Shown here: in pieces, positions 10,604 through 61,429 of the stretch
Position numbering within the stretch: the first letter of the stretch is position 1
Layout of the letters: every line of letters starts with the position of its first letter
Assembly: GCF_900115205.1 (NCBI RefSeq)
Contig: NZ_FOYQ01000001.1
Span: 771,240-835,239, forward strand
Reading direction: 5' to 3'
Length of the DNA: 64,000 nt
Source: Robiginitalea myxolifaciens
GTDB taxonomy: Bacteria > Bacteroidota > Bacteroidia > Flavobacteriales > Flavobacteriaceae
Notes under the pieces: generated by a model
Databases searched by the model: none
What the model was told of the DNA's origin: nothing
What the model saw: the letters and a program-made list of their open reading frames with translations, nothing else
Position numbers and translations under genes: made by a program

Positions 10604-10866
10604 TTTTTCAAACTTAAATTTAGATTAGTTATTGAGGCTAAAGATAAAAAAAAATTAAAACTAAAAAATTAAATGTAACCGCCCGAAACCCTGATATTTC
10701 CAAAAGATTGGGCGATTTTAAAAGAATTCCTTTCCCAAAACGGGCAAGGGTTGAAAAGTATGCAAAAAGTAGGAAAGGCGCAAGTTTGTTTTACATGGAT
10801 TCGCAACCGCCTTGGAAGTTGGTGTATTCAGATCGAAGTTTAAGGGGATTAGCTGCGCTGATCCCG

Positions 10867-10931
10867 GGCCGAACGACCAAAAAACCTCCAGTGGAGGTTT
10901 TTTAGTGAGGAGCCAGCTGGTGCGCTGGCAA
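10867..10931 (-). repeat. Dispersed 65-nt three-hairpin element, copy A
   Basis: Read on the minus strand it starts TTGCCAGCGCACCAGCTGGC (hairpin 1, stem GCCAGC/GCTGGC). A spacer TCCTCACT follows, then a 25-nt hairpin with an 11-bp perfect stem and 3-nt loop (10879-10903), then GGTC-GTTC-GGCC. Copy B at 61286-61350 has the same length and near-identical flanks, but the central stem differs at four base pairs with compensation on both arms. It lies at the far end of the region downstream of tRNA-Ser and may also act as a terminator, since its central stem ends in a T-run on both strands. Confidence 0.75.
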
Positions 10932-10963
10932 TTTCAGGTGCGGAACAAGCATAGAAAGCAGCG
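10932..10963. repeat. 32-nt direct repeat, copy 1
   Basis: Begins TTTCAGGTGCGGAACAAGCA and ends AAGCAGCG. It differs from copy 2 (11019-11050) at two of 32 positions; the starts are 87 nt apart. It abuts the dispersed 65-nt element. Confidence 0.8.
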
Positions 10964-11018: not shown

Positions 11019-11050
11019 TTTCAGGTGCCGGACAAGCATAGAAAGCAGCG
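11019..11050. repeat. 32-nt direct repeat, copy 2
   Basis: Begins TTTCAGGTGCCGGACAAGCA and ends AAGCAGCG. It is separated from copy 1 by a 55-nt stretch that contains two hairpins (10966-10978 and 10978-11009). Confidence 0.8.
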
Positions 11051-11129: not shown

Positions 11130-11163
11130 GTCGCCGCTATTGCGGCGATGCTTTCCTTTTGTG

Positions 11164-11250
11164 CAGAGAGGAAGGGATTCGAACCCTCGATCCGCTCTCG
11201 CGGAAACACGCTTTCCAGGCGTGCGCCTTAAACCACTCGGCCACCTCTCT
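11164..11250 (-). tRNA. tRNA-Ser (anticodon GGA)
   Basis: An 87-nt class II tRNA on the minus strand. The acceptor stem AGAGAGG/CCTCTCT is complete. The D-arm contains GCCGAGTGGTTTAAGGC. The anticodon stem CACGC/GCGTG holds the loop CTGGAAA with anticodon GGA. The long variable arm (CCGC-GAGA-GCGG) and the T-loop GGTTCGAATCC are clear. No CCA is encoded. It decodes UCC and UCU. Confidence 0.96.
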
Positions 11251-59851: not shown

Positions 59852-60454
59852 TTATTCCTCTTCGCTCTCGGCAGCTTCGGCCTTAGCTTCTTCAACAGCT
59901 TCTGGCGCTTCTGCTTCGGCTACTTCTGCTTCAGGAGCTGGAGCTTTGGCAACGGCTTCAACCTCTTCGGTTGCAGCTTCTCCTTCAGGAGTTTCAGGCA
60001 GTTCTGCTTCAGCAGCAGCGGCGGCGCGTTTCTCGTTAGCTTCTTTCTCAGCTTCCAGAGCTTTTGCGCGAGCTTCTTCTTTAGCTTTCTCCAGATCTTT
60101 AGACTTTGCAAGGATTTTTTGCTCCTTGTCGGTAAGCCAGGCCTGGAATTTCTTTTCAGCTTCCTCTTCGCTGAAAGCACCTTTGCGAACGCCACCCAGG
60201 AGGTGGTGCTTCATCATTACTCCTTTATAGGAAAGGATACGACGAGCAGTTTCGCTGGGCTGAGCTCCATTGTTGAGCCATTCCACAGACTGATCCACAT
60301 CCAGCTCAATAGTAGCAGGATTGGTATTTGGATTGTAAATTCCTAATTTCTGGAGGAAACGTCCGTCGCGTTTTGCGCGGGCGTCTGCAGCCACGATCCA
60401 GTAGAAAGGTTTTCCTTTTTTACCATGGCGTTGCAATCTAATTCTTACGGGCAT
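59852..60454 (-). CDS. rpsP: Ribosomal protein bS16 with long acidic/alanine-rich tail
   Basis: A 200-residue bS16. The first ~85 residues are the conserved fold (PVRIRLQRHGKKGKPFYWIV, RDGRFLQKLGIYNPN, LSYKGVMMKHHLLGGVRKGA). The usual protein is 80-90 residues, so about 110 residues form an extension: first a charged helix (KAKEEARAKALEAEKEANEK), then a low-complexity Ala/Glu/Pro tail ending AESEEE. Such tails are common in flavobacteria and of unknown role. It is the first gene of the rpsP-rimM operon. Confidence 0.94.
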   Translation of the reverse strand: MPVRIRLQRHGKKGKPFYWIVAADARAKRDGRFLQKLGIYNPNTNPATIELDVDQSVEWLNNGAQPSETARRILSYKGVMMKHHLLGGVRKGAFSEEEAEKKFQAWLTDKEQKILAKSKDLEKAKEEARAKALEAEKEANEKRAAAAAEAELPETPEGEAATEEVEAVAKAPAPEAEVAEAEAPEAVEEAKAEAAESEEE

Positions 60455-60774: not shown

Positions 60775-61224
60775 ATGAAGTATTCGGAAAAGATTTCCAA
60801 TAAATTAAATGAATTACTCGAAAAAACTTATGACGCGGAAAAAGGCTATCGCCTGGCTGCCGACAAGGTAGAAAACCCAGCGGTCAAGAAGTTTTTAAAC
60901 GATAAAGTACAACAGCGCTACAATTTCGGGCATGAACTCAAGAATGAAATTTCGGAGTTCGGACAATTGCCGGATAAAGGCGGAAGTTTTAAAGGGGACA
61001 TGCACAGAATCTGGATGAACCTGACTTCCACCCTGAGCAACAACGATACAGAGAGAATCCTCGAAGAAGTTGAACGCGGCGAAAAAGCAAGCCTGGAGGA
61101 ATACAACGAAATCCTCAAGGAAACTACCTTGCCAATGAGCACGGAAAACTTGCTCACCAAGCAGCGCGATGCCATTAAGGCCGCCCTCGAAACAGCTAAG
61201 CGTTTTGAGACTGCAGTAGCCTAA
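60775..61224 (+). CDS. DUF2383 / PA2169-family four-helix-bundle protein
   Basis: A 149-residue all-helical protein of the ferritin-like PA2169/DUF2383 family: SNKLNELLEKTYDAEKGYRL at the N-terminus, VQQRYNFGHELKNEISEFGQ in helix 2, and EILEETTLP-like EILKETTLPMSTENLLTKQR in the last helices. These small proteins are often stress-induced; the metal-ligand Glu/His set is not clearly complete. It stands alone with a strong terminator behind it and a promoter unlike most in the window. Confidence 0.82.
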   Translation: MKYSEKISNKLNELLEKTYDAEKGYRLAADKVENPAVKKFLNDKVQQRYNFGHELKNEISEFGQLPDKGGSFKGDMHRIWMNLTSTLSNNDTERILEEVERGEKASLEEYNEILKETTLPMSTENLLTKQRDAIKAALETAKRFETAVA

Positions 61225-61258: not shown

Positions 61259-61287
61259 AATCCCGGCCATGAGTCGGGATTTTTTTT
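61259..61287 (+). terminator. Terminator of the DUF2383 gene
   Basis: AATCCCG (61259-61265) and CGGGATT (61275-61281) form a 7-bp stem with a 9-nt loop, followed by a run of T to 61287. The dispersed 65-nt element begins inside the T-run. Confidence 0.8.
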
Positions 61288-61350
61288 GCCAGCGCACCAG
61301 CTGGCTCCTCGCTGTAAAAGATCCACAGGATCTTTTACGGTCGCTCGACC
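61286..61350 (+). repeat. Dispersed 65-nt three-hairpin element, copy B
   Basis: It starts TTGCCAGCGCACCAGCTGGC (hairpin 1), then TCCTCGCT, then a 25-nt hairpin with an 11-bp perfect stem and ACA loop (61314-61338; arms GTAAAAGATCC / GGATCTTTTAC), then GGTC-GCTC-GACC. Outside the central hairpin it matches copy A (10867-10931) at 37 of 40 positions. Inside, four stem pairs differ with compensation. It directly follows the DUF2383 terminator and precedes dnaE. Otherwise 61351-61429 shows nothing certain. Confidence 0.75.
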
Positions 61351-61429
61351 CCAGTTGATAACTCCTAAAAAGTAGGCTTTATCTAAAGGAGGTATTTCCA
61401 TATTTTTAACCCTTGCAACCGGCGAACCT

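Follow-up and report, generated by a model that had tools for sequence, protein, structure and literature searches.

The window analysed here, a stretch of 64,000 nt from Robiginitalea myxolifaciens (contig NZ_FOYQ01000001.1), contains two copies of a 65-nt sequence built around a hairpin whose arms differ between the copies and are paired in both. The locus raises the question of whether this repeat is a structured RNA that trails genes or a piece of DNA that moves. We favour the latter and give a probability of roughly 0.6 to the view that the repeat acts as a folded DNA hairpin and is a small mobile element without an enzyme of its own (non-autonomous). The evidence for this reading includes a siting at tRNA genes in fixed orientation, conserved blocks that pair around a variable, near-perfect inverted repeat, and a scarcity of wobble pairs.

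The two copies in the window and their family

The features of the two copies are given below in window numbering. The given strand is the minus strand for copy 1 and the plus strand for copy 2, and model positions run from 1 to 66, starting from GCC.

10867–10931, minus: copy 1 of the 65-nt element (model match 10866–10931)
10879–10903, minus: central hairpin of copy 1, variable in sequence (11 pairs and a 3-nt loop)
10904–10914, minus: left conserved block of copy 1 (model positions 16–26, 5′ side of the outer stem)
10866–10875, minus: right conserved block of copy 1 (model positions 55–64, 3′ side of the outer stem)
11163–11250, minus: tRNA-Ser (gga), upstream of copy 1
61286–61350, plus: copy 2 of the 65-nt element (model match 61288–61353)
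61288–61353, plus: 66-nt presence/absence segment, bounded by the T run and GTTGATAACTC; G006, G005 and G001 lack it at the orthologous locus
61314–61338, plus: central hairpin of copy 2, variable in sequence (11 pairs and a 3-nt loop)
61303–61313, plus: left conserved block of copy 2 (model positions 16–26)
61342–61351, plus: right conserved block of copy 2 (model positions 55–64)
60775–61224, plus: DUF2383 gene (Pfam PF09537), upstream of copy 2
61259–61287, plus: terminator-like hairpin and T run immediately 5′ of copy 2 (by eye)

A recount bore out the original prediction of two 65-nt copies. Of 40 flank positions 37 are identical, each central 25-nt block folds into 11 perfect pairs with a 3-nt loop, and every one of the four central pairs (of 11) that differ between the copies is compensated. 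When the window was searched without guidance, 14 inverted-repeat pairs emerged, and the two copies constitute the longest of them (66 nt, 82%). The predicted common orientation relative to the upstream gene holds as well, with copy 1 lying 232 nt 3′ of tRNA-Ser on the same strand and copy 2 following the DUF2383 gene. The two leading T of copy 2 are common to the preceding T run, and the hairpin at 61259–61287 is missing from the output of the terminator scan, its loop exceeding the range of the scan. Neither copy matched an Rfam family at the gathering score, in agreement with the statement that no named family was recognised; below this score only Hrs12, STnc370 and RNAI appeared, each at less than two thirds of its cut-off.

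Two further features of the window were recorded. A second dispersed repeat (10932–10963 and 11019–11050; also in L347, L348, L349 and L350) lies between tRNA-Ser and the element. Read on the minus strand, it contains ATGCTTGT(C/T)CGGCACCTGAAA, after which comes GGGATCAGCG...TAATCC, and sister species have at least one copy at the same locus. An S16-Flavobacteria ribosomal protein leader (RF03138; 60460–60494, minus) is found just 5′ of the minus-strand ORF 59852–60454.

The repeat belongs to a family whose dispersed copies are spread patchily over Bacteroidota and gut Clostridia. The exact 14-nt core has three perfect matches in its own genome, namely both window copies and one that lacks the hairpin. 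A covariance model built on seven copies, the kind of search proposed with the original prediction, revealed six confident copies in this genome; two more matches were doubtful (E 0.017 and 0.029), and a further two rows were at chance level. Matches were obtained in 10 of 10 genomes of Robiginitalea and, with the own genome counted, in 38 of 149 relatives. The prediction had staked itself on the existence of more copies and on compensated changes in their arms, and both were found. Robiginitalea contributes 57 of the 113 model matches, 69 of which were read. Genome G030 has 18 matches; the 11 copies that were aligned hold the module within a longer composite unit, L132 differing at the left. 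This composite unit (L123–L132) has sharp ends near TTTACTCGATAATCGAGA and GAGGTAGTTTACT.

Among the matches listed, paired stems occur in the Bacteroidota hosts Maribacter, Croceivirga, Eudoraea, Muriicola, Flavobacterium, Algoriphagus, Cyclobacterium and Roseivirga, and also in Clostridia/Ruminococcus MAGs; many further rows of the host pattern scan are, among the matches listed, chance matches without a paired stem. Seven Clostridia MAGs hold 17, 9, 6, 14, 3, 21 and 5 matches, with copies often paired about 185–200 nt apart. The patchy spread is illustrated by the presence of the element in 23 of 395 genomes of the class and in 5 of 147 genomes of the order around one Clostridia MAG (the MAG itself counted). 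The REP-like dispersed repeat that had been proposed is supported by these data.

Fold of the element and scarcity of wobble pairs

Mutual information over 62 non-redundant copies highlighted the central stem, the pairs 24–57, 21–60 and 16–64, and an unusual coupling of positions 19 and 62. In 58 copies from both phyla, 24–57 is GC in 38, AT in 18 and AC in 2, and 16–64 is GC in 43, CG in 6, CT in 6 and GG in 3. The coupled positions 19–62 are TC in 34 of these copies, CT in 18, TA in 2, CC in 2, CG in 1 and TT in 1. A second alignment, composed of 50 distinct copies that are mainly from Clostridia and were fitted to the model, gave GC 29, CG 15, AU 3 and other 3 for 24–57, and CG 41, GC 5 and other 4 for 25–56, with all slid controls far lower than the real pairs. 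Coupled changes, both canonical and non-canonical, thus join the conserved blocks GCYCCTCRCT and CGYTCGGY into an outer stem that encloses the hairpin. In the second alignment 16–64 is GC in 7 copies and other in 39; being mostly unpaired there, the pair is confined to Bacteroidota. Pyrimidine mismatches at 22·59, 23·58 and 26·55 are near-invariant in the 58 copies, and the five outer pairs are all formed together in only 33 of 62.

Seen from the complementary strand, these mismatches become G·A and A·G, with a tandem GA step, and 19–62 becomes an A·G/G·A exchange that is occasionally Watson–Crick. The complement is the more stable strand in 51 of the 58 copies when DNA parameters are used, and in 44 with RNA parameters. 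The functional strand is most likely the complement of the given strand, on which the G·A and A·G pairs would form. The outer stem was also considered as a kink-turn, but by the general consensus of that motif its bulge is on the wrong side relative to the G·A pairs, and the reading was dropped.

Three hairpins had originally been drawn along the element. The second, central one stands, but the first and third do not hold as general features and are largely replaced by the single outer stem. Hairpin 1 (GCCAGC/GCTGGC) is complete, with each of its six pairs formed, in 12 of 62 copies and in 8 of the 41 from Robiginitalea. All four pairs of hairpin 3 are present in 14 of 62 copies; since these 14 are all among the 41 Robiginitalea copies, hairpin 3 may be a local alternative pairing within the genus.

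The flank blocks of five copies in the own genome are 93% alike, as against 47.5% for the first 8 nt of the arm, and the arm sequence itself is therefore free. Pairing may be all that is required of the arms, or both may be rewritten jointly, template switching being one conceivable route. Many arms outside Robiginitalea have the form AAAA...TTTT around a GC-rich tip, and many Robiginitalea arms are without a T run. A CCCGATAGCTATCGGG-type palindrome lies within or replaces the left arm of the element in L097, L113, L114 and L122, and is absent from the window.

The 58-copy set comprises 76 parsed rows minus L164 (false), L086, one row of L153, and then rows more than 90% alike. Watson–Crick pairs account for 570 of its 589 stem pairs; 2 are G·T on the given strand, 4 would count as wobble on the complementary strand, and the remaining 13 are mismatches of other kinds. 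The parser required A or G at position 24, C or T at position 57 and a well-paired stem, so that the perfection of the stem is inflated and the comparison of wobble with other mismatches is unaffected. Counted pair by pair, the changes in 44 copies are two-sided in 101 cases and one-sided in none, with one wobble pair; the second alignment gives 104 two-sided and 3 one-sided changes, with three wobble pairs. Structured RNAs normally evolve via G·U intermediates, and the tolerance of wobble in conserved stems that marks them is not displayed by the element. A wobble-poor pattern would fit pairing on both strands, a DNA hairpin, or the copying of one arm from the other. Selection on secondary structure, as first proposed, is supported, and arm swaps almost without wobble, together with the presence or absence of the 66-nt segment, fit a mobile DNA hairpin better than an RNA. 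Strong covariation is usually a sign of structured RNA; here it most likely reports DNA structure, which may be extruded or single-stranded, and the missing wobble provides a usable test.

Siting at tRNA genes and tRNA-derived brackets

The siting sample contained 51 of the 57 Robiginitalea matches, 51 copies from 36 Clostridia stretches (75 matches listed), 10 of the 18 G030 copies and 12 other members of the family, tandem copies being non-independent. In Robiginitalea, 31 of 51 copies have a tRNA gene at most 600 nt away. Of these, 26 lie 3′ of the tRNA and 5 lie 5′ of it, and all 31 are oriented in its direction. The Clostridia copies are likewise near a tRNA in 31 of 51 cases, 30 of them on the 3′ side and at 16 different anticodons, with all 31 oriented against the tRNA. 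For the other 20 of 51 copies in each group no tRNA was found within 600 nt, several Clostridia stretches being cut by contig ends. None of the 10 G030 copies examined, which belong to the composite unit, is near a tRNA, and 4 of the 12 other members are. Copy 2 of the window is one of the copies far from tRNA; as the window has three tRNAs, about 6% of it lies within such a distance.

Copies often come after a separate terminator-like hairpin. The 5′ end of tRNA-Pro is adjoined by L086, L091, L093, L098 and L117 in Robiginitalea and by L248 in a Bacteroidia MAG, the adjoining tRNA-Pro of L086 and L093 looking degenerate by eye. Hairpin modules of the form GGATCAC...GTAATCC, with variable arms, were also observed 3′ of tRNAs in Robiginitalea (L005, L084, L095, L113 and L122); by eye, their outer bases resemble the T-stem (GGGAT..ATCCC) of the tRNA at the locus.

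In most Clostridia units examined, the element is bracketed by segments of the adjacent tRNA. Along the tRNA strand, as read by eye, the tRNA comes first and is followed by a terminator-like hairpin and an inverted segment of that tRNA; then come the element and a tail, and after these a direct copy of the 3′ end of the tRNA and another terminator-like hairpin. The brackets were analysed in one unit from each of 24 of the 36 Clostridia stretches, those with an ARAGORN tRNA. The segment at the given-strand 3′ end of the element begins exactly at U54, which is 23 nt from the tRNA 3′ end, in 19 of 24 units (exceptions: L302, L308, L314, L317 and L330). On the other side, the complement of at least the last 14 tRNA nucleotides is present in 18 of 24 units, and in 14 of those it amounts to exactly 14 (exceptions: L307, which runs into a contig end, L314, L318, L322, L326 and L330). 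The mean bracket match is 13.2 and 13.3 nt to the own tRNA versus 5.7 and 5.7 nt to other tRNAs, and 19 of 24 units on the U54 side and 21 of 24 on the complement side lie above the 95th percentile of mismatched tRNAs. L200 and L204, from one genome, have core arms in common and different tRNA brackets.

The bracket layout is also found in Bacteroidota in L250 (Glu) and L234 (Leu), and in one-sided form in L099 and L112 (Asn). On the right side, an own-tRNA match of at least 9 nt occurs in 8 of 40 Bacteroidota cases versus 1.2% for other tRNAs, and in Robiginitalea the brackets are mostly undetectable. Possible origins of the brackets are template switching at the T-arm, a recombinase using the symmetry of the T-arm, or tRNA-primed copying. 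A small, probably mobile element is found at many different tRNA genes, and its breakpoints at exact tRNA positions in Clostridia make the integration route directly testable.

Possible mobility, explanations weighed and known systems

The DUF2383 gene was found in 7 of 10 Robiginitalea genomes. Behind it, G006, G005 and G001 have a terminator-like hairpin and then GTTRATAACTC, and the own genome has 66 nt between the two. At the same place G002 carries a scrambled remnant, G004 another sequence without the element, and G007 a different downstream sequence. The locus of copy 1 contains two copies of another repeat, and no element, in the sister genome G002. Comparison across the genus genomes revealed no clear target-site duplication at copy 2 and no excision. 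With respect to the terminal inverted repeats and target-site duplication that define MITEs of DDE transposons, what flanks the element in Clostridia is derived from tRNA, in inverted and in direct copies. In Algoriphagus L205, the element parts two stretches that are 27 nt apart in L222 (flanks searched separately); this apparent insertion lies within a gene that looks RHS-like by eye, and a single tested fragment of such a gene had no Pfam match. Tandem duplication was seen as 69-nt units in L150 and as 185–195-nt units in Clostridia, so that several copies can be explained without transposition. Units carrying a gene of their own were not seen among the loci inspected. As for phage or plasmid carriage, blastn with a composite query gave no match, and the strict element pattern was unmatched in viral contigs. 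A looser pattern gave nine matches in viral contigs, all without the conserved stem by eye, and carriage by phages or plasmids was set aside.

Two of the alternatives to a mobile DNA hairpin concern transcripts. The element could be a tRNA-trailer or 3′-end RNA, co-transcribed with the upstream tRNA or gene and affecting its 3′ processing or stability. The location that had suggested a trailer-type RNA was confirmed, in that all 31 tRNA-near Robiginitalea copies share the direction of the tRNA and 26 of 51 lie 3′ of it on its strand, and the covariation is strong. However, a trailer is hard to reconcile with two or three wobbles among hundreds of stem pairs, with the opposite orientation in Clostridia (31 of 31), with the copies away from tRNAs (20 of 51 in Robiginitalea, 10 of 10 examined in G030), or with the apparent insertion within a protein gene, and we regard this explanation as improbable. 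It is similarly doubtful that the repeat is a portable bidirectional intrinsic terminator, in which a stem of A-tract, GC hairpin and T-tract would stop transcription both ways. Such a terminator would by itself forbid wobble, and it would suit the AAAA...TTTT arms with a GC-rich tip that are common outside Robiginitalea, the position of copies downstream of tRNAs and genes, and the T run preceding copy 2. Yet it leaves the outer stem, the 19–62 coupling and the tRNA brackets unexplained, a T run is missing from many Robiginitalea arms, and copies are often preceded by a terminator-like hairpin separate from their own. A plain terminator was set aside, as the simple scan found neither window copy.

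The other two alternatives invoke a different mobilising machinery. An atypical REP moved by a RAYT or Y1 (HUH) transposase that was since lost in some hosts would be in line with a passage of PMC6006769 that describes atypical structures lacking GTRG for the Bacteroidetes RAYT subclass 2.6. Y1_Tnp is present in 14 of 25 element-bearing genomes tested, and Y1-like ORFs lie near the element at two Algoriphagus loci: L205:6065–6406, about 330 nt from the element and with an ORF fragment matching Pfam Y1_Tnp at E 1.7e-6, and L212:3037–3354, at about 1.2 kb. By contrast, Y1_Tnp is absent from 10 of 10 Robiginitalea genomes, from G030 with its 18 copies and from MAG G152 with its 14, a MAG that may be incomplete. 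Moreover, the element is absent from the loci fetched around Y1 genes (0 of 30 and 0 of 34), a Y1-like ORF occurs in only 2 of 248 sequences searched, and the consensus has no GTRG foot. On account of these absences and element-free Y1 loci, a RAYT-driven REP was abandoned as the leading idea in spite of the two nearby ORFs, and we consider it unlikely. A retroelement-like, tRNA-primed copy, with the 5′ bracket as primer-binding site and the insertion as a cDNA product, appears very improbable. The bracket does complement the tRNA 3′ end and begins with TGG in most Clostridia units, and a TGG-starting complement of a tRNA 3′ end resembles retroviral primer-binding sites. Against this, the stem behaves as DNA, and RVT_1 is above the cut-off in only 4 of 17 element-bearing genomes and below it or absent in 13 (several are MAGs and may be incomplete), for which reason a resident reverse transcriptase was discarded as a general need.

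For the mobile DNA hairpin, the reading we prefer, a putative enzyme acting in trans would recognise the foot TCRCT / CGYTCGG and join it at tRNA 3′ ends, in Clostridia at the T-loop position U54. The tRNA-matched brackets would be made during integration, by copying of the target. More tentatively, the family might represent a new class of genome parasite spanning at least two phyla, whose minimal element of folded DNA would target tRNA genes generally and join at a fixed T-loop position. It would remake its flanks from the tRNA entered (complement of 76–63 on one side, 54 onward on the other) by an undescribed recombination or copying route. If every newly entered tRNA does lead to the brackets being remade, the element would have an unusual means of adapting to its target.

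A comparison with known systems reveals partial likenesses. Genomic islands at tRNA 3′ ends are surrounded by direct copies of the tRNA 3′ end, and the element shares with them both the sites and the flanking direct copies. The element differs in having no integrase in its 65–190-nt units, in using many different tRNAs per genome and in adding an inverted tRNA segment. Integron attC sites act as single strands that fold, leaving some bases unpaired and ending in a variable tip, as the element may, but their RYYYAAC / GTTRRRY ends are absent from its consensus by eye, and no cassettes were seen. Rickettsia palindromic elements (RPE) are short palindromes entering genes, and the element is a short palindrome as well, a likeness that extends to CGTC-tagged repeats. 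The latter are reported in Bacteroidetes among other phyla in a section of PMC3733652; the element consensus has no CGTC end, and has a conserved outer stem and tRNA siting. A literature search on dispersed palindromes of Flavobacteria and Bacteroidetes and on tRNA-linked repeats, in which few subscription journals were covered, turned up no paper recognised as dealing with the element.

The nearest kind is REP/RAYT. REP, BIME and REPIN sequences are presented in parts of PMC6006769 and PMC3733652 as small dispersed, mostly intergenic DNA hairpins with stem mismatches and many copies, presumed to be non-autonomous and mobile, and according to PMC6006769 the hairpin foot bears a GTAG or GTGG tetranucleotide. 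The element is likewise dispersed, mostly intergenic and present in many copies as an imperfect hairpin. It departs from this kind in guide, transposase and neighbourhood: there is no GTAG, GTGG or GTRG foot in its 44-copy consensus and no Y1 transposase in Robiginitalea or G030, and its copies do not flank Y1 genes in the loci fetched. Unlike REPs, the element is tied to tRNA genes, with tRNA-matched brackets in Clostridia. We thus place it among the small palindromic mobile repeats, with its tRNA-bracket behaviour possibly constituting a new principle.
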